From NCBI GenBank assembly GCA_003553185.1, contig PUPC01000132.1:1-37329 (forward strand): a stretch of DNA of 37,329 nt. The letters are read 5' to 3'. Under the pieces are notes generated by a model. The model was not told where the DNA came from and searched no databases. It worked only from the letters and a program-made list of their open reading frames with translations. This DNA is from Planctomycetota bacterium. Its GTDB lineage: Bacteria; Planctomycetota; PUPC01. Of the stretch, positions 508 through 15,571 are shown piece after piece; positions within the stretch are counted from its first letter, which is position 1, and the number at the start of each line of letters is the position of its first letter. Both the position numbers and the translations under genes were made by a program.

Positions 508-3500
508 TCATCCCTTTTTCATGCAACAGCTTTTGTATTTCTTGCCACTGCCACAAGGGCAGGGATCATTCCGTCCGGGCTCGTCGGCAGCCCGCACCGG
601 TCGCCTCACGCCGCGCGATTTGCCCCCCGCTCCGGCGGCCTGTTTCTCGGCTTCCGCCTGTTCGTAGGCGCTCACCGAACTGTGGACGAGGTTGAGGTCT
701 TCTTCCTCCTCTTCGACTTCGGTGCCCAGTTCGACCCGCACCTTGAGCAGCATGTCGCTGACCTCCTCATGGATGCTGTCGACCATCGCCTCGAACGCCT
801 CGTAGCCCTCCTTCTTGTAGGCGATCTTGGGGTCGATCTGGGCGTAGCCGCGCATCCCGATCCCGCTCTTGAGATGGTCCATCAACTCCAGGTGGTCCTT
901 CCAGCGGGAGTCGATCGCCTGGAGGATCAGGACGCGAGCCGCCCAATGGAGCTGCCTTCTCCCCATCTCGCGGGTTCGCTTTTCGAGGGCGACGAACGCC
1001 CGTTCTTCGATCAGGTCGCGGACTTGCGTCGCTGGCAGCTTGCTCAGCTCGAACGGGTCCACGCCGAGTCCGAACTTGCGGTTGATCTTATCGCCGAGCC
1101 CGGCGAAGTTACGGCCCTCGTCGTTCAGGTCGGAATGCAGGAAGATCCCGCCGACGTGCCGGGCCGCGTCCACAGCCACCGCCTGCGGGGAGCGTTCCTT
1201 GTATCCGGCCATGGCCGCCTCAACAAATACATCGAGGATGTCGGCGTTCACCGATTCCAGGAGTTCGTAGACATCGAGGTATCCGTCGAGGTCCGAATGC
1301 TTGAGCCAATCTTGGAAGGCCTCGGCGTACCACGTGTCGGGCAGGGTCTGCGGTGGGAGGAAGCAGTCGATGGCGGCGGCAATCACGTCTGTGACGATTC
1401 TCGACGGCTGCTTGCGGGCCAGCGATTTCTGTGCCCGCTCGCACACCAGATGAGTAAGTGTTCGCTCGTCGATATCCATCGTCTCCTGCATTTGTGCGGC
1501 GGGCACCGAGATATGCAGTTTCGAGTTGACCCACCGTGCGAGCGGTTCGAGAGCGATCTCCTCGGTCCCTACGGAGGTGGCAAAGTAGGCGGCCATCGCA
1601 TCGGCGATCAGCCGATCGATCACTTCGGGCTGGTCCCATCCTTCCGCCTCGACCTCCTTGGTCAAGTGCTCGATGAGAGTCTCCTTCGCCTCGCTTCGTT
1701 TGCTATCCACCTTCTTGGAGAGGGCACTGTCGAGCTTGATGGGCGAGGAAGCAAAGCTGAACCGGCCGCGCGACCACGCCGCAAGATGTTCGTAAGAGGG
1801 GTCCTCCGCAAACGCTTCGCTTGTGAGGAACTCTTCCACCGAAGACCGAACACAGCGCCTGGCGAAGCCCAGGGCGTCTTCCTCGGGCAACTCGAGCACC
1901 TGGCTGCCGAAAAGCACAGGGAGTTCCTGCCGGGTGAGAGCGAGCCACTGCTCTTTGGTGATGTGCAGACCGAGCCGTTCCGCCCAGTTGACCAGCGGCT
2001 CGAAGTTGCGTTCCTCCGGGGCGTCCTCGGCAGTGAGATAGAGGCCGACCGAGCTGTCGATCACCTCGTGCAGCATTCGGGCGATGATTTCGTCCAGGCC
2101 GCTGCAATAGATGTTCGGAGCTTTGCTCTCATCGATCGCGTGGGCAACCTTCTCGATCATGTCTTCGCCGGGGAGTTTGCTCAACTCGAACCCGTCGATC
2201 CGTATTCCGAAGTCATCTCGGAGGCGGCGTGCCAGGCCGTCGAAATCTCTGCCATTCGGCTTAAGCGTCTCGGTAACCGCGTTGAAGATGGCGGGATAGT
2301 GCCAGTAGAGGGCGACTCCTTCCGGCTCGTCCAGTTGCTCTGCTTTGCTTGCCGCGAGTTCATCAGCCACCTGGTTGGCGGCCTCATCGGCGATCTCCTC
2401 GAATTCGGTCGGTGAAATCCGAACGCCGAACCGACACTCGACCCATAACGAAAGGCGCATCGCCGACGGGCGGCGACGAAAGAACTCGGAATCGACGTAA
2501 AGCCGGACGGTACGGGTAACCAGTGTGTCGATGACCTGACCGGCCGGCATCTCGCCGAGCCCTTCGGTCAGTCGCTCGGCCACCAGGGGTTCGATCTTCT
2601 CCGGTCGCCCCAACAGCCCGGGCCATTCGGCGCCGTCCACCCGGCAGGGCAGGTCACCAATCCATTCCTTGAAGGTGTCGTAGTCCCACGAGTCAGCCCT
2701 CAGGACCGGCAGATCTGCATGAAGGCCGCGACGGGCCCAGTCACGTACCAAGTCCTTCGTTTCGGCCGGTTCGACCGCTTCTGAGAGCTTTGCGATCAGC
2801 AGTTGGGCGAACAGGTCGTCCCAGTCAACCCGGCTGTCGAAACCGAGCCGCTTGAACCCTGTTCGTTGTTCTTCGCGGGTGCCGCGGCGGGCATTTTTCA
2901 GGGGACCGACGACCTCGGTTACGGCCTGTTTTGCCCGTGCCTCGATCTCCTCCGGTTTAGGTCGTCCGTTTGCTGCGGCTTGTTCGGCGGCGTTTTCGCT
3001 GAATATTCGCAGTGTCCCGGCCCGCCATACATCGGGCTCGACAGCGACGCCTGCCGCTGCCCGGACGGCCGACGCCGCCGGCTGGAACGAGCGCTCGAGT
3101 TCTATTTCCTCGCCCCGCAGCCACTCGGGGTCGATGAAATCGTTAATGACCTCGCGGGCAATCTCGTCGGCTGGCCGTTCACGGAACGCCTCAAGTACTG
3201 CCTGCCGCTCGCTGTACACCAATTTCCGCTGCTCGTTCATCACTTCGTCATATTCGAGGACCTGCTTTCTGTAATTGAAGTTCTGCTCCTCGACTTTCTT
3301 CTGGGCCCGCTCGATTGCCCGGCTGACCATACCCGACTCGATCTCCTGGCCGTCGCTCAGCCCGGTTTTCTGCATAAACCCGCGGACCCAGTCGCCCATA
3401 AAGATCCGCATCAGGTCGTCTTCAAGGGAGAGGAAGAAGCGGGATGAGCCGGGATCGCCCTGTCGGCCCGCCCGACCGCGAAGCTGGTTGTCGATCCGGC

Positions 3501-5466
3501 GGGACTCATGGCGCTCTGTCCCGACGATGTGCAGCCCGCCGAGTTCGACGATGTTCTTATGATCGGCCTCGGCCTGGTCTTCCAGTTCGCTCAGACGTGC
3601 GAGCAGCTTGGCCCCGAGTTCCGGTTCGAGATCGATGCCCAATTGGCCGGCGATGCGGTGTATGTTTTCACCCGGCTGCAGATTCGGGTCCCACACCGCC
3701 CGTTCGCCCGGAGGAAGGCCCGGCAAGACGATCTGGGCGGGTTCGTCCGGCGGCGATTCTGTGAACCGTTTGGCATATCGGAAGACGTTTATCAGGTCGC
3801 GCGATTCGGTTTCCGTGCGATGATGCCGGACCTCGAGTTCCCCCTGAAGAGCGAGGGTCGGATTGCCGCCGAGCACGATGTCGGTACCTCGCCCGGCCAT
3901 GTTGGTGGCGATGGTGACGGCACCGGGTTCGCCCGCCTGGGCGACGACCAGCGACTCTTTCTTGTGGTATTTTGCGTTGAGGACATCGTGCTTGATGCCC
4001 CGACGCTTGAGCCGTTCGGACAGCATCTCGGAGCGCTCGACGGAGATGGTTCCGACCAGCACCGGTCGGCCAAGCTGATGAATCCGAGCGATCTCCTCGA
4101 TGATCGCCTCGACCTTCTCCTTGTCGGTCGCGTAGATGATGTCGGGGTGGTTCTGTCGGCGCAGTGGCCTGTTGGGCGGGATCGGGATGACCTCAAGGTC
4201 GTAGATCTTGTTGAACTCGCCCGCCTCGGTCATCGCCGTCCCGGTCATGCCGGAGAGCTTGTTGTAGAGCCGGAAGAAGTTCTGGAAGGTAATCGTGGCC
4301 AGTGTCTGGTTTTCTTCCTGAACCTGCAGGTTTTCCTTGGCCTCCACCGCCTGGTGCAGCCCGTCACTCCACCGGCGTCCCGGCATCAGCCGGCCGGTGA
4401 ACTGATCGACGATGATGACCTGCCCCTCGCGAACCACATACTCCTTGTCCCGTTGATAGAGTTCCTTGGCCTTCAGGGCGTTGTCCATGAAATGCGGCCA
4501 CTCGATGTTCTTGCCGGTATAGAAGTCGGTAACACCGCACAGCTTCTGTGCGGTCAAAATTCCTTCCTCGGTGAGGACCACGGAGCGCTCTTTTTCCTTG
4601 ACCTCGTAGTGGTCGCCCTTGCGAAGCCGTTGTGCGGCCCGGTTGGCCACGTAGTATTTGTCCGTCGCCCCTTCGCCGGCTCCCGATATGATTAGCGGTG
4701 TGCGTGCTTCGTCGATGAGAACGCTGTCCACCTCGTCGATAATCGCGTAGTGCAACTCGCGCTGGGCTTGGTCCTCCGCCCTCAGTTTCATGTTGTCCCG
4801 AAGGTAATCGAAGCCGAACTCGTTGTTGGTGCCGTACACGATGTCGCACGCATAGACCGGGCCGCGTTCACGCGGGTCCATATCGGACTGGATGGCTCCG
4901 ACCGACAGGCCGAGGAACTCGTAGACCGGGCTCATCCAGGCCGCATCGCGCCGGGCGAGATAGTCGTTGACCGTAACCACGTGCACGCTCTTTCCGGTGA
5001 GTGCGTTCAGGTATGCGGGAAGCGTGGCGACCAGCGTCTTGCCTTCGCCGGTGATCATCTCGGCGATCATACCGCGGTGGAGAACAATGCCGCCGAGGAG
5101 CTGGACATCATAGTGGCGCTTCGGATAGGGGTGGCCCTCGACCCGTCGTGCGGCTTCGCGGACCACGGCGAACGCCTCGACCAGAAGGTCATCGAGTGTC
5201 TCGCCGTCGGCATACCGATTGCGAAACTCGCCCGTCTTGGACGCCAACTGCTCGTCCGACAGCTCCATTAACTCCGGTTCGAGGGCATTGATGGCGTCGA
5301 TGGTTGGCTGCATCTTGGCGAGGGTTCGTTCGACGGCGGTGCCGCCGAGGACGAGTCGGAACACCGAGTCGAGAAAACGGCCGAAGTAGTTCGGCACCGT
5401 CTCCGCCAGGGAACGAAGCTTCTCTAATAAGGAACTGTGCGGTATTCCTGTCGGCATCTCACTCAT
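508..5466 (-). CDS. secA: SecA preprotein translocase ATPase with expanded wing/scaffold region (1652 aa)
   Basis: SecA is the motor ATPase that drives preproteins through SecYEG. Expected parts are present in order: N-terminal helicase domain with Walker A (MITGEGKT, K143) and DEVD (244-247), preprotein cross-linking domain (about 230-370), second nucleotide-binding domain (TNMAGRGTD, 521-529; [10 protein letters not shown], 664-673), the long scaffold helix (about 715-760), the conserved [21 protein letters not shown] stretch (from 1521), and a zinc-binding SEC-C tail (C1636, C1638, C1647, C1648). Bacterial SecA is usually 800-1000 residues. Most of the excess here lies between the scaffold helix and residue 1500, where one unit of about 75 residues recurs roughly eight times. 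A further insertion of about 70 residues sits in NBD2 (540-635). The reading frame and every motor motif are intact, so it is a working gene. ATG at 5466 is used; Shine-Dalgarno pairing is weak. Confidence 0.97.
976..2691 (-). repeat. Eight tandem copies of the SecA wing-domain unit, within secA
   Basis: These bases encode SecA residues about 926-1497. A degenerate unit recurs with anchors at residues 929, 1002, 1074, 1153, 1224, 1304, 1380 and 1453, giving spacings of 73, 72, 79, 71, 80, 76 and 73. Each unit reads approximately: aromatic-x-x-L-x-x-W, then FG or LG, then I/V, then an E/W-F/W-x-x-L element, then a helix rich in E, V and R, then a second helix leading to Y/F before the next anchor. 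Examples are [33 protein letters not shown] and [17 protein letters not shown]. The last copy sits directly before the conserved RWKDHL segment, where ordinary SecA has its only copy. Copies at 1074 and 1453 share FELSKLP exactly. Units at 929, 1224 and 1380 are the most diverged. Confidence 0.8.
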
Positions 5467-5891: not shown

Positions 5892-7391
5892 TTATCCGCC
5901 CGTCCACCGCAGCACGGTCGAACCCCAGGCGAGCCCTCCGCCGAACGCGACGAGCACCACCAGGTCGCCTCGTTGGATCAGGCCCTTGCGGTTCGCTTCG
6001 TCGAGGGTGATGGCTACGGACGCCCCCGATGTGTTGCCGTAGCGGTCGAGGGTCGTGTAGGTCTTTGACATAGGAATGCCGAGGGCGTCCATCCCGAACT
6101 TGATGATGTTGATGTTCGCCTGGTGTGCGACGAGGAAGTCGATATCGTCCACGGTCAAGTTCGCCCGTTCGAGTGCGGTCCGCACCGCTCGCGGGAACGC
6201 TCGAGTGGCAAACTCCCAGACGTGTTTCGGCTTCATCTGGAAGTAGTGCAGGCCGTGCTGCACCGTTTCGATGCTGGCGGGCATCCGCGTACCCCCGGCC
6301 GGTGCGGTTATCGTCTCGTACCCGGTCCCGTCGGTCTGCACGTATGAGGTGAGGATGCCGTGTTCGCCGGCCGATGCTCGGCCGAGCACCATCGCTCCGG
6401 CCCCGTCGCCGAAATAGATGCACGAGTTGCGATCGGTAAAATCGAGCATCCGGGAATAGACCTCCGAGCCGATAACTAGGGCGGACTCGGCCGAACCGTC
6501 CTCGATGTACCGGCGGACGATATCAATGGCGTAGACCGTCCCCGTGCACATCACGGGCAGATCGAAGGCCATGGCGTTCGGGGCGCCGAGTTCCCCCTGG
6601 ACGATACACGCGGTGCCGGGAAAGATGCGGTCCGGGACCGTGGTGGCCAGGACGATCATATCGAGTTCCTCGGCGCGAACGTCCGCCACGTCGAGCGCCC
6701 GCCGGGCGGCCTGGATGGCGAGGTCCGACGTCGCCTCATCGTCGGCCGCGAACCGCCGCTCGGCCACGCCGACCCGCTTGCGAATCCACTCGTCGCTGCT
6801 GTTGATATTCGCGATCGAGATCACGTCGTTGTTGGTAAGTACCCGCGCGGGGAGATAGGACCCGGTGCCCAGGATCGTCGCGGCATATCGTTTGCCCGCC
6901 CCGGTTTCTTTCGACGGGCCGGCTGTAGGTTCGGCCGATTCGACGAATCGTCGGACATCCTCCTCACGGATCACTCCCTGCTGTTTCACCTGATCGAGTT
7001 CGACACCGAGTTCGGCTGCCAGACGGCGGGCTTTCAGTGTCGCCCGCGCCCGCGGTGGCCGGGCCTCCTCGGGCGAAGCGGTCGATTTCGGAGCTGCCAT
7101 GTCCTCTGGTTCCGGCAGGGGCGAGTCGGGCCGTTCGGTGACAAACCCGAGCGCCTGGCCAACCGCGCACTCCTGGCCCGGCTGTATCCGGTGCCGGAGG
7201 AAGCCCGCGGCTCCGGCTTCCAAATCGACGGCGGCCTTGTTGGTCTCGACAGTGCAGACGACATCGTCCGGGCCGACCTTCTCTCCGTCATCGATGGCCC
7301 ATCCCACCACGATGGCGGTATCTTCGTTCACGTTCAGGCGGGGCAGGTGTATGGCGTGAATTTGCGCGTCTGGTCGTTGTTTGTTGCTCAT
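5892..7391 (-). CDS. Lipoyl domain - E3/E1-binding domain - ketoacyl-ACP synthase III fusion (499 aa)
   Basis: The N-terminus (about 10-85) is a lipoyl domain with the lipoylated lysine in ETNKA (K52). A proline/alanine linker leads to a peripheral-subunit-binding domain (about 112-150), as in E2 subunits of 2-oxoacid dehydrogenases. The rest (about 168-499) is not the E2 acyltransferase but a complete ketoacyl-ACP synthase III fold with its Cys-His-Asn triad: C282 in MCTGT, H423 in AHQAN, N453 in YGNTSGAS. No HxxxDG acyltransferase motif is visible. Lipoyl and thiolase-fold parts are certain. Direct acyl transfer from lipoyl to C282, then condensation with a malonyl thioester to start a fatty acid or related product, is inference. 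The gene overlaps the E1 beta stop by four bases (ATGA), which fixes the start and implies translational coupling. Alternative: a KAS III that makes another acyl product or releases acyl-CoA. Confidence 0.93.
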   Translation of the reverse strand: MSNKQRPDAQIHAIHLPRLNVNEDTAIVVGWAIDDGEKVGPDDVVCTVETNKAAVDLEAGAAGFLRHRIQPGQECAVGQALGFVTERPDSPLPEPEDMAAPKSTASPEEARPPRARATLKARRLAAELGVELDQVKQQGVIREEDVRRFVESAEPTAGPSKETGAGKRYAATILGTGSYLPARVLTNNDVISIANINSSDEWIRKRVGVAERRFAADDEATSDLAIQAARRALDVADVRAEELDMIVLATTVPDRIFPGTACIVQGELGAPNAMAFDLPVMCTGTVYAIDIVRRYIEDGSAESALVIGSEVYSRMLDFTDRNSCIYFGDGAGAMVLGRASAGEHGILTSYVQTDGTGYETITAPAGGTRMPASIETVQHGLHYFQMKPKHVWEFATRAFPRAVRTALERANLTVDDIDFLVAHQANINIIKFGMDALGIPMSKTYTTLDRYGNTSGASVAITLDEANRKGLIQRGDLVVLVAFGGGLAWGSTVLRWTGG

Positions 7392-8392
7392 TGCAGCATC
7401 ACTTTCTCGACAGCTCCTCTGACGGTTTCCACGCCGGGCAGGACGTGGTCTTCGAGTGGCCGGGCGGTGGGCAGCGGCAGGTCCCGCCCGGTAACACGGA
7501 CAGGTCTGGCCACAAGCCGGTCGCCCCATCGTTCTACGACGCGTGCCACCACCTCTGCCGCCCAGCCCCAGGACCGAGGGCCTTCTTCAGCCACGATAAG
7601 CCGACCGGTCCGGGCAACGGACTCGCCGATCAGGGCGGTGTCCAGCGGGGCGATTTCCGATGGGGCTAGAATCTCGCAGGCCACCTCGTCCTCGTTGAAC
7701 GTGGCTGTCATCGCCTCCTCGACGATCGGGAGCATCGGACCGTAGGTCACCACGGTTACGTTCGGCTGCTCGCCCGCCGCGTTATTGAGGACGGCAGCCG
7801 GATATGGCGGATGAGTGTGGGCGATGTCGTAGTGCTCGCTGACCGTGGCCTGCTCCGCGGCATAGAGCAGTTTGCCCTCGATAAAAACCACCGGGTTGGG
7901 GTCGTCGATCGCCGCCCCGATCAGTGCCGCTGCATCGTGGCGAGGCGTGGGGGCGACGATACGGAGCCCGGGGGTGGAGAGCAGCATCCGCTCCAACGAC
8001 TGGCTGTGGGTGGGACCGTAGCCGCGCCGCCCGCCCATCGGCGCCCGGACGACCAGGGGGACGGAGACGGCCCCGTTGTACATCCAACTGAACTTGGCGG
8101 CGTGGTTGATGAGCTGGTCGGCGGCGAGGGCGATGAAATCGCCGAACATCATCTCGACGACGGGTCGCAGGCCGCGAAGAGCCATCCCGGTCGTCACGGC
8201 CACCGTCCCCGCCTCGCTGATCGGGACATTGATCAGGCGGCCGGGAAATTCCGAGGACAGGCCGCGGGTGATCCGAAACGCACCGCCGTACGGGTCGCAG
8301 ATGTCTTCTCCGAGGAGATACACCGTGGGATCGTCGGCCAGCTTTTTTCGGAGCCCGGCTGCAATCGCCCGCCCGACGGTCAGCTTTTCCAT
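7388..8392 (-). CDS. 2-oxoacid dehydrogenase E1 component, beta subunit (334 aa)
   Basis: This is the transketolase-like beta subunit of a thiamine-diphosphate-dependent 2-oxoacid dehydrogenase (pyruvate, acetoin or branched-chain type). Family features include the N-terminal LLGEDI (about 25), the PISEAG segment that contacts ThDP, and the C-terminal domain beginning around residue 205. Length is normal for the family. With the alpha subunit it decarboxylates a 2-oxo acid and passes the acyl group reductively to a lipoyl domain, here presumably that of the downstream fusion protein. The ATG at 8392 is preceded by GGAAGGG at a good distance. The gene starts 13 bases inside the alpha-subunit gene and ends in a four-base overlap with the fusion gene, so the three are one translational unit. 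Substrate cannot be read from the sequence. Confidence 0.94.
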   Translation of the reverse strand: MEKLTVGRAIAAGLRKKLADDPTVYLLGEDICDPYGGAFRITRGLSSEFPGRLINVPISEAGTVAVTTGMALRGLRPVVEMMFGDFIALAADQLINHAAKFSWMYNGAVSVPLVVRAPMGGRRGYGPTHSQSLERMLLSTPGLRIVAPTPRHDAAALIGAAIDDPNPVVFIEGKLLYAAEQATVSEHYDIAHTHPPYPAAVLNNAAGEQPNVTVVTYGPMLPIVEEAMTATFNEDEVACEILAPSEIAPLDTALIGESVARTGRLIVAEEGPRSWGWAAEVVARVVERWGDRLVARPVRVTGRDLPLPTARPLEDHVLPGVETVRGAVEKVMLQ

Positions 8393-9333
8393 AATCCCTT
8401 CCCGATATCGCCCAAGTCCTGGACCGGTGCCTTCCTGGCAGCGGCGATGGCCCGCTCGATCCGCGCCTGGCAACGCCCTTCGATCTCCCGCCGGTCGGCC
8501 CCGTCGAGAGCTCCGGCCAGCAGAGCGAGCGGATCGCGTTTCCGCCACTCATCTTCCTCTTCCCGGGTCCGGTAAGCCCGTTCGTCGTTGATGCTGTGGC
8601 CGCAGAATCGGTAGGTCCGCAGTTCGAGCAGATAGGGGCGGCAGTTCTCGCGCACGTACTCGACGGCTTTCTCGGACGCTTCGATGATCTCGAACACATC
8701 TTCGGACTCGACGGTCGCCGACTCGATGCCCAGGGCATCTGCCCTCGGGACGATTCCGCCGGCCAGCGTATCCCGCACGTGGGTGCTCATCGCATAGAGG
8801 TTGTTTTCTAGCGCATAGAGGATCGGGGCGTTCCACAGAGAGGCCATGTTCATCGCCTCGTGCAGGATTCCCTGGGCGAGTGCCCCGTCACCGATGAACG
8901 AACACACGATATTGCCGGACTCTTGCTGCTTCTCGGCCAGTGCCATACCGGTCCCCACCGCACCCATTCCGCCGGTGATCCCGTTTGTGTAGAAGTTCTC
9001 GGCATAGAGGTGCTGGGAGCCGCCACGCCCGGCACACACCCCGGTTGCCCGGCCCATGATCTCGGCCATCAGGCCTTTGACATCGCCTGTCCATGCGAGG
9101 AAATGCCCATGACCACGGTGGGTACTGGTCACCACGTCGGTCGGTTCCAGCGCGGTCACCACGCCGACCGCTGTGGCTTCCTGACCGATGCAGGGGTGGG
9201 TGGTCCCGAACAGTTCTCCCCGGGTAAACAGTTCGGCGATGCGTTCCTCGAAGGCGCGGATGAGGTACATCTGTTCGTAGATGTCGAGCTTAGCGCATGT
9301 GGCCACAAGCCGCTCCAGAGCCGCCGGGTGCAT
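8380..9333 (-). CDS. 2-oxoacid dehydrogenase E1 component, alpha subunit (317 aa)
   Basis: This is the ThDP-binding alpha subunit of the same E1. The ThDP/magnesium motif is present: GDG at 148-150 and the paired asparagines at 177-178 (ENN). Also typical are THPCIGQEA (45-53), with STHRGHGH after it, and GRGGSQHLY (102-110). Closest in feel to the acetoin/pyruvate E1 alpha group, but the substrate is not determinable. It is the first gene of the E1 alpha - E1 beta - lipoyl/KAS III operon. No Shine-Dalgarno is seen before the ATG; instead a good -10 box ends 16 bases upstream, so the transcript would be nearly leaderless. No E3 gene is nearby. Confidence 0.94.
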   Translation of the reverse strand: MHPAALERLVATCAKLDIYEQMYLIRAFEERIAELFTRGELFGTTHPCIGQEATAVGVVTALEPTDVVTSTHRGHGHFLAWTGDVKGLMAEIMGRATGVCAGRGGSQHLYAENFYTNGITGGMGAVGTGMALAEKQQESGNIVCSFIGDGALAQGILHEAMNMASLWNAPILYALENNLYAMSTHVRDTLAGGIVPRADALGIESATVESEDVFEIIEASEKAVEYVRENCRPYLLELRTYRFCGHSINDERAYRTREEEDEWRKRDPLALLAGALDGADRREIEGRCQARIERAIAAARKAPVQDLGDIGKGLWKS

Positions 9334-9474: not shown

Positions 9475-9909
9475 TCAGACAATCGTTGAGTCGTCATCGC
9501 CTGCGGACTCGCCGGGCTCCTTGCCGACGTGTTCGAGCACCTCGTCCTCGACAAAGATCGGTGCTTCGAGGCGGACGGCGAGTGCCACAGCATCGGACGG
9601 GCGGGAGTCGACCTCGACGACGCTCCCGTTCACCTGGAGGATGAGCTTTGCGTAGAAGGTGTTGTTCCGCAGGCCGCTGACGATAATGCGGTCGAGCCGG
9701 GCGCCCAGTTCGGTGATGACGTTTGAGAGGAGGTCGTGGGTCAAAGGCCTCCGGGTGGGGATGTCGCGGACCTTACGGTCGATGGCGGCGGCCTCCACGA
9801 TCCCGATCAGGATGGGGAATATCCGGGTGCCTTGTTTTTCGCGGAGCCAGATCACCTGATAGTCGCTCGTCTCGGTGATCAGGATTCTCGCCAGTTCCAT
9901 TTCGACCAT
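9475..9909 (-). CDS. Bifunctional nuclease (BFN/DUF151) family protein (144 aa)
   Basis: The sequence is a near-complete BFN domain. Family traits are the early VIWLREKQGTRIFPILIG segment, the IDRK and RPLTHDLL stretch, and the C-terminal SRPSDAVALAVRLEAPIFV signature followed by an acidic tail. Members from plants and Thermotoga have been studied as nucleases or structurally; the bacterial role is poorly defined, so catalytic activity here is not claimed. ATG at 9909 is chosen because GGGGAAA lies just upstream and the longer open frame adds an unrelated leader. It has its own promoter (9951-9978) and stands 141 bases ahead of the E1 operon on the same strand. Confidence 0.9.
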   Translation of the reverse strand: MVEMELARILITETSDYQVIWLREKQGTRIFPILIGIVEAAAIDRKVRDIPTRRPLTHDLLSNVITELGARLDRIIVSGLRNNTFYAKLILQVNGSVVEVDSRPSDAVALAVRLEAPIFVEDEVLEHVGKEPGESAGDDDSTIV

Positions 9910-9950
9910 TGGTTTTCCCCAATTGGATTGTTCGTTACCGCCTATCTGCC

Positions 9951-9978
9951 ATTCTAATTTCCGGGGCGCCAATGTCAA
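9951..9978 (-). promoter_or_regulatory. Promoter of the BFN-family gene
   Basis: Minus strand: perfect TTGACA (9978-9973), 16 bases, TAGAAT (9956-9951). The start near 9944 gives a leader of about 35 bases with a GGGGAAA ribosome-binding site. Confidence 0.7.
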
Positions 9979-12421: not shown

Positions 12422-15400
12422 TCAGTCGTACAACTCGGGCCAGGCCGCGCGTTCTTCGTCCTCGGGGAACCGAGTGAGCACATCCATCTCGACCACGGCG
12501 TTTTCGCTGGGCGGAGCTTCGTAGCGTTCGACGTTCTGGCGGACCGCGCGGAGTGCGTCACCGGGTTCAAGTGCCGACGTTGAGGGGATGACGGCGAGAG
12601 CGAAGAAGGTGAAGTCCGGGCGTGAAAAGGCAAAGCTGGTGATACGCCCGATCGGAACGCTGTCCTGGTCGATGACCGCGTGCCCCGGTCGAACGCTTCG
12701 CCGCCCCTGCCCGCGTACCCTGATAACCTTCTGGTTCGCACTGCTTACGCGGTCGATGTACGCCCGTCGTCCGATGAAAAACGGGACGTGGAACCTGGCG
12801 ATGAAACCGTAGCCCGCCTCGGTGATCGAGAGGCGGCACGGCCCCTCGAGCTCGTGCCCGAACAGCGGAAATCCCGCCTCGGTCCGTGTCGAATCGCGTG
12901 CGCCCAATCCCGCCGGGCGCACGCCGAGCGGCTCACCGGCCGCGAGCAAGGCGTCCCAGAGTTCGACGCAACGTGCCGGATGCACATAAAGCTCGAACCC
13001 GACCTCTTCGCCGGTGTAGCCGGTGGCCGCGAGCAAGCACTCGATCCCGGCCAGCCAGACCCGGATGAACCGATTCTGCTCCAGGCGCGGGATGGCGAAC
13101 CGATCTTTGGCATCCGCGGCGAGCCGACAGAGCACTGCGGCCGACTTCGGACCTTGCAGGGCGAGTCCGACGAGCCCATCCTCGCGCAGATTACGGATTT
13201 CGACGGGGGCTTCGATCTGCCTGGCGGGCAGCTCGCCGTCGATGGCCACCTCCCGCGAGTTGACCGCGTTCATCCAGTCCCAGTCCCGCTCGGCATTCGC
13301 GGCGTTTGCGACGAGCACAAAACGGTCGCGCTCCAACCGGTATATGTACAGGTCATCGATGGCGGTTCCGTCGGGATCAAGCATGTAGGTGTATTGGGCA
13401 TGACCGGGTTCAATACGCGAGACGCAGTTGGCGAGCACCGTGTCGAGGAAGCCGACGGCGTTCCGGCCGCGGATCTCGAACAGACTCATATGCGATATGT
13501 CGAACAGCCCGGCGGCGGTTCGGACCGCCGCGTGCTCGGCGAACACGCCGTCCGGATACTGCACGGGCATCTCCCACCCGGCGAACGGGGCCATCTTTGC
13601 GCCGAGGTCCTTGTGGGCCTGGTTCAGGAGTGTGCGGCGGACGGGCCTATCGGCCTCCTTGTATTCATAGGCCGGCTTCGGATCCGGTTGTGCCCGGGCG
13701 TACTCAGCGGTCTGTCCGATGAAATACGGTTTGGTCACATCCGCCGTCGGTTCCGGCAATTGATCCGGCAGGCAGTCCATGAGGCCTTCCGGCAGCGGCT
13801 CGATCACCGTCGGACCATCGACCTTGGCGTACAGGTCTTGCTCGTCGAACAACAGATATCCATCCGAGAGTGCGGCCACGTGTTCAACGACCGCACGGCC
13901 TTTGTCCTGACTGGTCAGCAATGCGAATTGTTCTTCCCGTCCGCACAGTCCCAGGTTGACGACGGCGACGTCGTCGATGACCGCCCCGTCGCTGCGCAGC
14001 ATCCTGCCTACCGCCGCTTCGCCGACCTCCAGGCACGCCGTGCGGCAGGTCAGCATTTGGCCCAACGCGAGCGAGACCTTGTCGCCGCGCAGAAGCCAGG
14101 CGGCACGGCCCAGATGGACCGGCGGCTCGCAAGAAGAAGCGGGCGTTTTCGGCTCGGGAGGGTAGGGCAGGGCGCTTACGATTTTTCGGACGCGCTCTGC
14201 GGCCGCTGGCAGGACGTCCTCCGGGACGCGCCCGCGGCAGCGCTCCTCGCCGGCGGGCACCCAAACCCGGGTGGTGTGGACGTTGCTGAGGACCGTCTTT
14301 ATGATCGACGCCAGCTCGGCGATCTGCGCACGGTTGATCCCCCGCTGTGTCGCCCAGGGCATACCCAGCCGAATCCCGCTCGCCTTGCCGCCCGTCTCGT
14401 CCCCCGGCAGGACGTTCTTGTTGCAGACGATTCCAGCGATCTCGAGCAGCCGGGATGCGATCTCGCCGTCGATCGGGACGGTGGGGTTCGGATGGTCGTC
14501 GAAACGCTTCAGGTCAATGAGCAGCAGGTGTGTGTCTGTGCCGCCGTATTCGAGCGTGAACCCCTCGGCTTCGAGTCGTTCGGCGAAGTACGCCGTGTTG
14601 TCGAGCACGGTCTGCTGCAGTTCGACGAACCGGTCGCGTTCCTGCTCGATGAGTTCGAACCGTCGGGCGATAGCGGCGATAGAATGCAGGTGCGGGCCGC
14701 CCTGCAGCCCGGGGAAAACACCCGCCTTGATCTTTTTGGCCAGCGTGGGATAGGTGGTCAAAATCACGGAGCCACGCGGGCCGAAGAGTGTCTTGTGTGT
14801 GGTGAACGTGACCGCGTGAACGTGGGGGAGGGGATTGTTGAGCAGGCCGGCCGCCACCATCCCCGCCAAGTGTGCGATGTCGGCCAGCACGAACGCCCCC
14901 ACTTCGTCGGCAACAGCTCGCAGTTCCGCCCAGTCGAAGTCCCATGGGTACGACGACGCCCCGCCGATGATCAGGCGCGGCTTATGCTCGCGAGCCAGCT
15001 CAGCGATGCGGTTATAATCGAGCCGGCGAGTCTCGGGGTCAATGCCGTAAGGGACCACGTTAAATGTTTTGCCTGAGTAGTTGAATTCGCTGCCGTGTGT
15101 CAGGTGCCCGCCGTGCGCGAGGTCCAGACTGAGTATGGTGTCCCCGTGTTCGAGGACCGCCTCATAGACGGCGGTATTCGCGGGCGAGCCGGAAAGTGCC
15201 TGGACGCAGACGTGGATGCCCTCGGGGGGCGGACTGCCCTCGAGTTTTGCGAAACACTCGGCGATGAACTTGTGCGCGAGCAGTTCGGCTCGATTCGCGT
15301 TGACGCAGCCGCGATAGTATCGTCCGTCGGCGAGCCGGGTCTGCCAACTCGCAAACCGAGCGGGGTCAGTCGCGCTGTCCCTCGGGTCGTGTAAAAGCGG

Positions 15401-15571
15401 GGGCTCCGGCTGCCCCTCGGCGTAGATGTTCGAGAAGGCCGAGGATTCGATCTCGGCGGCCCGCGGGTCGCAGATGCTTTCGGAGGGGATGAGCACCAGT
15501 TTCTGCCATTGCCGGCGGCGCTCGGCCTCGACAAGTTCGACGATCTCAGATGGCGGTTGAGGTTGGGACAT
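12422..15571 (-). CDS. glyA-gcvT: Serine hydroxymethyltransferase - aminomethyltransferase (T-protein) fusion (1049 aa)
   Basis: Residues 1 to about 465 are serine hydroxymethyltransferase, with the PLP lysine in FTTHKTLFGPRG (K260) and the DIAHLAGM aspartate (D231). Residues about 645-1049 are the glycine cleavage T-protein, with GLFDISHMS (688-696), the NAANAERD catalytic aspartate (about D763), ALQGPKS (804-810) and ARDSTRTEAGFPLFGHEL (891-908). Both halves appear complete. Between them, about 485-600 looks like a degenerate fragment of the T-protein folate fold. Both enzymes use 5,10-methylene-tetrahydrofolate, so a fusion would join glycine cleavage to serine synthesis; that coupling is inference. 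ATG at 15571 is taken because the SHMT family begins here, whereas the upstream open frame overlaps gcvPB. The gene follows gcvPB by 26 bases and is last in the operon. Confidence 0.95.
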   Translation of the reverse strand: MSQPQPPSEIVELVEAERRRQWQKLVLIPSESICDPRAAEIESSAFSNIYAEGQPEPPLLHDPRDSATDPARFASWQTRLADGRYYRGCVNANRAELLAHKFIAECFAKLEGSPPPEGIHVCVQALSGSPANTAVYEAVLEHGDTILSLDLAHGGHLTHGSEFNYSGKTFNVVPYGIDPETRRLDYNRIAELAREHKPRLIIGGASSYPWDFDWAELRAVADEVGAFVLADIAHLAGMVAAGLLNNPLPHVHAVTFTTHKTLFGPRGSVILTTYPTLAKKIKAGVFPGLQGGPHLHSIAAIARRFELIEQERDRFVELQQTVLDNTAYFAERLEAEGFTLEYGGTDTHLLLIDLKRFDDHPNPTVPIDGEIASRLLEIAGIVCNKNVLPGDETGGKASGIRLGMPWATQRGINRAQIAELASIIKTVLSNVHTTRVWVPAGEERCRGRVPEDVLPAAAERVRKIVSALPYPPEPKTPASSCEPPVHLGRAAWLLRGDKVSLALGQMLTCRTACLEVGEAAVGRMLRSDGAVIDDVAVVNLGLCGREEQFALLTSQDKGRAVVEHVAALSDGYLLFDEQDLYAKVDGPTVIEPLPEGLMDCLPDQLPEPTADVTKPYFIGQTAEYARAQPDPKPAYEYKEADRPVRRTLLNQAHKDLGAKMAPFAGWEMPVQYPDGVFAEHAAVRTAAGLFDISHMSLFEIRGRNAVGFLDTVLANCVSRIEPGHAQYTYMLDPDGTAIDDLYIYRLERDRFVLVANAANAERDWDWMNAVNSREVAIDGELPARQIEAPVEIRNLREDGLVGLALQGPKSAAVLCRLAADAKDRFAIPRLEQNRFIRVWLAGIECLLAATGYTGEEVGFELYVHPARCVELWDALLAAGEPLGVRPAGLGARDSTRTEAGFPLFGHELEGPCRLSITEAGYGFIARFHVPFFIGRRAYIDRVSSANQKVIRVRGQGRRSVRPGHAVIDQDSVPIGRITSFAFSRPDFTFFALAVIPSTSALEPGDALRAVRQNVERYEAPPSENAVVEMDVLTRFPEDEERAAWPELYD

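Follow-up and report, generated by a model that had tools for sequence, protein, structure and literature searches.

A lipoyl-ketoacyl-ACP synthase III fusion in the E2 position of a 2-oxoacid dehydrogenase-like operon from Planctomycetota

In a 37,329-nucleotide stretch of a Planctomycetota genome (GenBank assembly GCA_003553185.1, contig PUPC01000132.1; hereafter, the window), the E2 position of an operon resembling that of pyruvate dehydrogenase is occupied by a protein that fuses a lipoyl domain to a ketoacyl-ACP synthase III (KAS III). In the established complexes, E1 reductively acylates lipoyl groups and E3 re-oxidizes the lipoyl arms; KAS III enzymes take acyl groups on a cysteine and condense them with malonyl thioesters. 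The best overall explanation, to which we assign a probability of roughly 0.5, is that acyl groups would pass from E1 to a lipoyl group on K52 of the fusion, then to C282 of its KAS III domain, and finally into condensation with a malonyl thioester. If true, 2-oxo acid decarboxylation on lipoyl arms and KAS III chain initiation would be joined in one protein, and CoA thioesters removed from between these two halves of acyl metabolism. Such an arrangement would tie carbon–carbon bond formation directly to the oxidative decarboxylation of a 2-oxo acid, and offer a compact means by which unusual starters could prime the synthesis of fatty acids or polyketides.

A real fusion, encoded with E1

The fusion gene (5892..7391, minus strand) encodes a single chain of 499 residues running from 7391 down to 5892, as a preliminary description of this DNA had proposed. 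At its N terminus, the lipoyl domain (residues 10-86; 7134..7364, minus strand) matches Pfam Biotin_lipoyl (PF00364) across residues 14-81 with 30.1 bits, above the cut-off. Given a lipoyl-rich alignment, AlphaFold2 modeled residues 11-85 as a lipoyl β-barrel with a pLDDT of about 90, a part left unresolved when the alignment held no lipoyl sequences, and Foldseek matched the N-terminal model to lipoyl domains. K52 (codon 7236..7238, minus strand), the candidate lipoylation site within an ETNKA motif, is invariant among 24 aligned lipoyl domains and sits in the modeled turn joining strands 44-49 and 54-58; it would be expected to carry lipoate.

The KAS III domain (residues 166-499; 5895..6896, minus strand) scores 367.8 bits against the NCBIfam KAS III subfamily PRK09352, for which the cut-off is 249, contains Pfam ACP_syn_III (276-355) and ACP_syn_III_C (407-496), and superposes on FabH structures with target TM values of 0.92-0.97 among the best Foldseek matches. 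By their Pfam and NCBIfam matches, the assignment of the lipoyl and KAS III domains is certain. The peripheral-subunit-binding domain (PSBD) placed between them by the preliminary description (residues 113-153; 6933..7055, minus strand) is more equivocal: it is degenerate, its match to E3_binding (PF02817) at residues 121-147 reaching 20.5 bits, slightly under the 23.7 cut-off, and its model consists of a PSBD-like pair of helices (119-128 and 143-153, pLDDT about 80). The catalytic residues lie exactly where first reported alongside K52: C282 (codon 6546..6548), the acyl-accepting cysteine, H423 (6123..6125), and N453 (6033..6035), all on the minus strand and equivalent to C112, H244, and N274 of Escherichia coli FabH.

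Upstream of the fusion lie E1beta (7388..8392, minus strand; PF02779 and PF02780; signature GRRGYGPTHSQ) and the thiamine diphosphate (ThDP)-dependent E1alpha (8380..9333, minus strand; 317 residues; PF00676, 219.9 bits, with tree and motifs in agreement), together a heterodimeric ThDP E1 by their Pfam domains. E1beta starts 13 bp inside E1alpha, and its stop overlaps the start of the fusion as ATGA; the three genes thus overlap end to end, in keeping with the coupling that had been claimed. Also borne out is the missing acyltransferase: Pfam detects no PF00198 domain in the operon, and the sole copy in the genome is on contig C12. Neither a dedicated ACP nor an E2-like acyltransferase was seen among the open reading frames of the window, and the operon contains no malonyl-donor, ACP, or tailoring gene.

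A second MAG from the same genus (Planctomycetota bacterium PWKM01000244.1) encodes the fusion at 95% amino acid and 91% nucleotide identity, within 13 kb of synteny common to both. Between the two, dN/dS for the fusion is 0.065 overall, 0.04 for the KAS III domain, and 0.14 for the lipoyl and PSBD parts. The recurrence of the fusion, the synteny and the low dN/dS rule out a mis-assembly or frameshift chimera; the fusion is real and under selection.

Its distribution is narrow among the Planctomycetota genomes and plasmid records that we surveyed. Neither a KAS III search (149 relatives) nor an N-terminal search (392 Planctomycetota) returned a fusion beyond the two genomes. No lipoyl part occurred among the best KAS III matches listed for PLSDB plasmids, and no lipoyl domain was seen in the long open frames around KAS III matches L061, L068, L070, L072, and L073. 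We therefore reject a widespread fusion: within the Planctomycetota genomes searched and the best PLSDB matches, it turned up in two genomes only. No KAS III relative in the other genomes adjoins an E1, most residing in plsX-fabH-fabD clusters.

An E1 subfamily with unconventional E2-slot partners

The partners of related E1s provide the context for this fusion. We collected the closest E1alpha homologs of the phylum, picked by similarity to the window E1, and searched their surroundings for lipoyl, E2 core, ACP, KAS III, hexapeptide, and E3 components, using profiles built for the purpose. The E1beta signature GYG[PA]THSQ occurs at 28 loci, none of which (0/28) adjoins a canonical E2 bearing DHRxxDG, and it is absent from E1betas that do adjoin canonical E2s, a rule found and tested on one and the same E1 set. 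No E2-slot partner was recognized at 12 of the 28 loci, three of these 12 sequences ending at or just after E1beta; elsewhere the slot is taken by an ACP, by a lipoyl domain with a hexapeptide acyltransferase or on its own, or by an altered E2.

For instance, four genomes of the same class, the closest same-class relatives, encode E1alpha-E1beta-ACP operons devoid of a lipoyl protein (L106:4389-6717, L107:3751-5970, L108:7017-9417, and L109:3072-5335), the ACP being Pfam-checked in three and assigned by similarity in L107. Gene order at these loci is often dxr-rseP-E1alpha-E1beta-ACP, with no lipoyl or E2 gene, and in two of them the E1-linked ACP is followed by a hydrolase resembling exosortase-A-associated hydrolase 2 (L107:5970-6782; L108:6199-6996, the latter matching TIGR03101 below the cut-off). 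The cispentacin ACP AmcB, the best NCBIfam match of the E1-linked ACPs, was set aside as a lead; its paper names no thiamine enzyme, E1, or lipoyl.

At four further loci, the gene directly after E1alpha-beta fuses a lipoyl domain to a hexapeptide-repeat (left-handed β-helix) acyltransferase (L112:4486-5907, L115:4390-5973, L131:4913-6064, and L137:5017-6630; Pfam-checked for L112, L115, and L131), with a PSBD also present in L115. These proteins may hand acyl groups from the lipoyl arm directly to sugars. L114 encodes a lipoyl protein with no acyltransferase domain at all. The altered E2 domains occur on lipoyl proteins from the renieramycin system (RenI, L104), from L129, and from two actinomycetes and Paenibacillus (together L169, L170, and L171). 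In all five, N, T, or E replaces the D of DHRxxDG, giving DHRxx[NT]G or DHLLTEG, a change that may mark CoA-independent E2s; a carrier-protein stretch lies just downstream of the L129 locus. A separate kind of Planctomycetota operon, ordered E1alpha-E1beta-lipoyl/E2-ACP, occurs at six other loci (L140, L143, L151, L153, L154, and L158); canonical DHRxxDG is present in the four checked, and the E1beta motif is AQHSH.

These neighborhoods lend weight to the central proposal of the preliminary description, that acyl groups go straight from the lipoyl arm to C282. Within the subfamily canonical E2s do not adjoin E1, ACPs or other acyltransferases stand in their place, often on a lipoyl arm, and the fusion has an intact triad; direct transfer is quite probable. 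They also suggest a rule whereby GYG[PA]THSQ E1s would serve non-CoA acceptors, with the E2-slot occupant—ACP, hexapeptide acyltransferase, altered E2, or KAS III—indicating which, a guide that would aid genome mining in Planctomycetota and beyond.

In trees of E1alpha plus E1beta (63-66 taxa, ultrafast bootstrap, built without QncN, NapB, and NapD), the window pair has as its sister group, at 100% support, a clade of RenH, Streptomyces and Paenibacillus NRPS-linked E1s, and those of L114, L129, L131, and L149, a placement that depends on midpoint rooting. The window E1 lies outside rather than inside the RenH/NRPS-linked clade, and on a long branch. All eight sister-clade E1alphas examined carry an HSKGDD loop with a deletion; the window E1alpha reads GHSINDERAYR, of the 2-oxo-acid type. 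With HSKGDD absent and the ordinary loop kept, we rate a 2-oxo acid as a somewhat likelier E1 substrate than a ketose phosphate.

An intact condensing triad without a basic ACP patch

The Claisen triad C282-H423-N453 is intact in the fusion, and the surrounding surface has diverged. In E. coli FabH, we take K214, R249, K256, and K257 to mediate ACP docking, and W32 and R151 to clamp the CoA adenine. The four docking positions are E393, N428 (codon 6108..6110, minus strand), D435, and A436 in the fusion, a net charge of -2, against a range of +1 to +4 for the FabH-type proteins compared, that of E. coli among them. Only the fusion has lost every basic docking residue; R249 is kept by every other FabH-type protein compared. 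Both CoA-clamp residues persist, as W202 (W32) and R321 (R151), and the active-site loop is PVMCTGT where other FabHs read approximately xAACxGF. The two MAGs are identical at triad, docking, clamp, and active-site-loop positions.

We read these features as a KAS III that would still be able to condense but would no longer dock ACP in the usual way. The preliminary description had C282 condense its acyl group with malonyl-ACP, and as written that claim does not hold up well: loss of the four basic positions makes malonyl-ACP condensation doubtful, and malonyl-CoA as donor, or simple acyl transfer, appears to fit better.

The domain is FabH-like, 39-50% identical to Planctomycetota FabHs. An origin from NapE-like enzymes found no support; the cattleyicolor KAS III encoded beside an E1 of this type is remote and has lost the His (CPN). 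The triad differs, too, from the C-H-D of the KS III-like acyltransferases ChlB3 and CerJ (PMC9573744).

Relation to known systems

That lipoyl groups can deliver acyl units to something other than CoA is already a known theme. An enzyme recovered from a metagenome by Craig and Brady in 2011 reportedly makes branched acyl-ACP from branched 2-oxo acids; judged by title only, it resembles the system proposed here in bringing the acyl group of a 2-oxo acid to a carrier with no free acyl-CoA on the way. Lipoyl-bound units are known or proposed to pass to carriers rather than CoA in the supply of glycolyl units for naphthyridinomycin, quinocarcin, dnacin, and scleric acid biosynthesis (PMC7570522, PMC6335953). 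There, NapB/NapD and QncN/QncL act as two-component transketolases that take a glycolaldehyde unit from a ketose phosphate. For the dnacin KAS III DinQ, a NapE homolog, the proposed role is loading of the ACP with the acyl unit (PMC7570522).

The systems NapB/NapC/NapD/NapE, DinU/DinT/DinS/DinQ, QncN/QncM/QncL, and SclQ1-4 share with the window a two-component E1, a lipoyl arm, and, as proposed here, a non-CoA acceptor; in the trees, RenH and NRPS-linked E1s of that type fall in the sister group of the window E1. In the naphthyridinomycin and dnacin systems, the companion KAS III (NapE or DinQ) is encoded by a separate gene (PMC7570522, PMC6335953), whereas in the window it is fused to the lipoyl arm, and an E2-like acyltransferase, a dedicated ACP, and an NRPS are all absent. 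The window E1alpha also differs in having no HSKGDD loop, and its KAS III in being FabH-like with a full C-H-N triad. Given that KAS III genes already accompany the sister E1 type, the fusion can be regarded as a variant of the lipoyl-to-non-CoA theme.

The pepteridine pathway of Photorhabdus offers a second parallel, in which a pyruvate dehydrogenase-like E1 is paired with an E2 that also carries the thiolation and condensation domains of an NRPS (PMC5384830). Its authors propose direct priming of the carrier, citing the branched acyl-ACP formation of Craig and Brady (PMC5384830). It resembles the window in pairing E1 with an E2-like protein joined to a biosynthetic domain; carrier priming is proposed in place of acyl-CoA, and E3 is borrowed from the host (PMC5384830). 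By contrast, the pepteridine protein retains an E2-like subunit and employs NRPS T and C domains where the window has KAS III.

The conventional relatives are easily distinguished. FabH shares the fold, triad, and CoA clamp, but has none of the lipoyl and PSBD parts, E1 operon, and PVMCTGT loop of the fusion, which in turn has no basic ACP patch. Pyruvate, branched-chain, and acetoin dehydrogenase complexes likewise place a lipoyl-PSBD protein after E1alpha-E1beta; the window differs in having no E2 catalytic domain, hence no E2 core, and in an E1beta motif of GYGPTHSQ instead of AQHSQ or AHHSK. We found no description of a lipoyl-KAS III fusion in the literature searched. The preliminary assertion that no enzyme of this kind has been characterized consequently stands for the fusion, within that search, but not for the principle, for which NapB/NapD and QncN/QncL with NapE/DinQ, and the pepteridine E2-NRPS, are precedents. 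E1, lipoyl, and KAS III are already known as partners; what is new, within the scope of our search, is that lipoyl and KAS III share a single chain whose condensing triad is intact.

A proposed route, and what else C282 might do

In the route that we favor, E1 alpha/beta with thiamine diphosphate would cleave its substrate, more probably a 2-oxo acid than a ketose phosphate, and reductively acylate the lipoyl group on K52. The tethered arm would swing to the KAS III domain, reaching C282 of its own chain or of the dimer partner, where the cysteine would take the acyl group. The C-H-N triad could then join it to a malonyl thioester that is decarboxylated in the reaction, malonyl-CoA being the likelier donor and malonyl-ACP the less likely, yielding a 3-oxoacyl thioester with no free acyl-CoA; the acyl donor would thus be tethered, and the malonyl donor may be CoA-bound. 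E3, docked via the PSBD-like domain, would re-oxidize the arm. KAS III forms dimers, and a complex built around it would therefore have dispensed with the large E2 core.

Confidence is not uniform along this route. Transfer to C282 is quite likely, and the chance that condensation follows is about even; we infer the malonyl donor and the acyl substrate alike. The most specific version falls somewhat below even odds: the lipoyl arm would deliver its acyl group to the KAS III cysteine of the same chain for condensation with malonyl-CoA, bypassing both acyl-CoA and acyl-ACP, in a subfamily whose E2 slot would have been refilled repeatedly by different acyl acceptors. Several observations temper the favored route. 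W32 and R151 are also kept in ordinary FabHs, so their retention is no proof of malonyl-CoA use; the PSBD is degenerate; the C12 canonical E2 could serve the window E1 in trans; and the known KAS III partners of NapB/D-type systems are proposed acyl loaders, not condensing enzymes.

That last precedent frames one alternative: C282 would pass its acyl group unchanged to CoA, ACP, or another thiol or amine, KAS III simply replacing the E2 acyltransferase. The same E1 clade feeds ACPs, DinQ and NapE of the sister systems are proposed to load acyl groups (PMC7570522), the cattleyicolor enzyme beside such an E1 has dispensed with its His, and a retained CoA clamp with a lost ACP patch would suit delivery to CoA. 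Yet an ordinary E2 would already accomplish transfer to CoA, and the fusion has the full C-H-N condensing triad, unlike the CPN of the cattleyicolor protein or the C-H-D of ChlB3 and CerJ. We consider acyl loading less likely than not.

Likewise less likely than not is a glycolyl variant, a proposal about the substrate that is compatible with each of the other routes. Here E1 would be a two-component transketolase that draws a glycolaldehyde unit from a ketose phosphate, with KAS III handling glycolyl. The fully supported sister relationship to RenH and NRPS-linked E1s and the common GYGPTHSQ motif speak for it; the long branch, and the GHSINDERAYR loop in place of the HSKGDD loop and deletion of all eight sister-clade members, speak against.

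Other E1, E2, E3, and FabH genes in the home genome

The draft genome that includes the window (3.19 Mb, 400 contigs, 89.5% complete) bears on the remaining alternatives. On contig C224, it encodes a plsX-linked FabH with 39% identity to the KAS III domain of the fusion. A separate E2 elsewhere, which by the preliminary description would refute its reading if it bound this E1, does exist: one canonical E2 (DHRIADG), on contig C12, adjoining no E1. But a canonical-type E1 is there to use it, an alpha-beta fusion on contig C236 whose E1beta part has the usual Gln before the active-site His (GQHSQ). The simplest pairing would join the C236 E1 with the C12 E2, leaving the window E1 for the lipoyl-KAS III protein. 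With its own plsX-linked FabH and canonical-type E1 and E2, the genome would not need the fusion for those roles.

This setting bears on the malonyl-ACP version, in which acyl-C282, derived perhaps from branched 2-oxo acids, would initiate a fatty acid or polyketide. The KAS III fold and triad would allow it, and related operons of the class have their own ACP; against this, all four basic docking positions are lost, the operon has no ACP gene, and a normal FabH stands beside plsX, making this version improbable. Least probable is an ordinary function, with E1 working with the C12 E2 and the fusion acting as an acyl-CoA-using FabH with a decorative lipoyl domain: the solitary canonical E2 and the kept CoA clamp would permit it, but the C236 E1 is available for that E2, GYGPTHSQ E1s are not found beside canonical E2s, and the lipoyl and PSBD parts are under purifying selection with the K52 motif intact.

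No E3 (Lpd) scored over the cut-off in the 89.5% complete home MAG. The sister MAG and a further genome, G002, each encode one, so the absence is probably a gap in the assembly.

Neighboring genes in the window

Two genes lie upstream of E1alpha on the same strand: one with a bifunctional-nuclease domain (9475-9978, minus strand) and a LarA-like lactate racemase (PF09861; 10045-11388, minus strand), the latter raising the possibility of a 2-hydroxy acid link to the E1 substrate. Further along, a gene at 12422-15571 (minus strand) unites serine hydroxymethyltransferase and glycine-cleavage T-protein in one chain (PF00464 and PF01571), clustered with GcvP subunits and GcvH. At 508-5466 (minus strand), the window encodes a SecA of 1652 residues, in which an insertion of approximately 740 residues separates the P-loop part (to residue 706) from the wing/scaffold stretch that begins at residue 1448.
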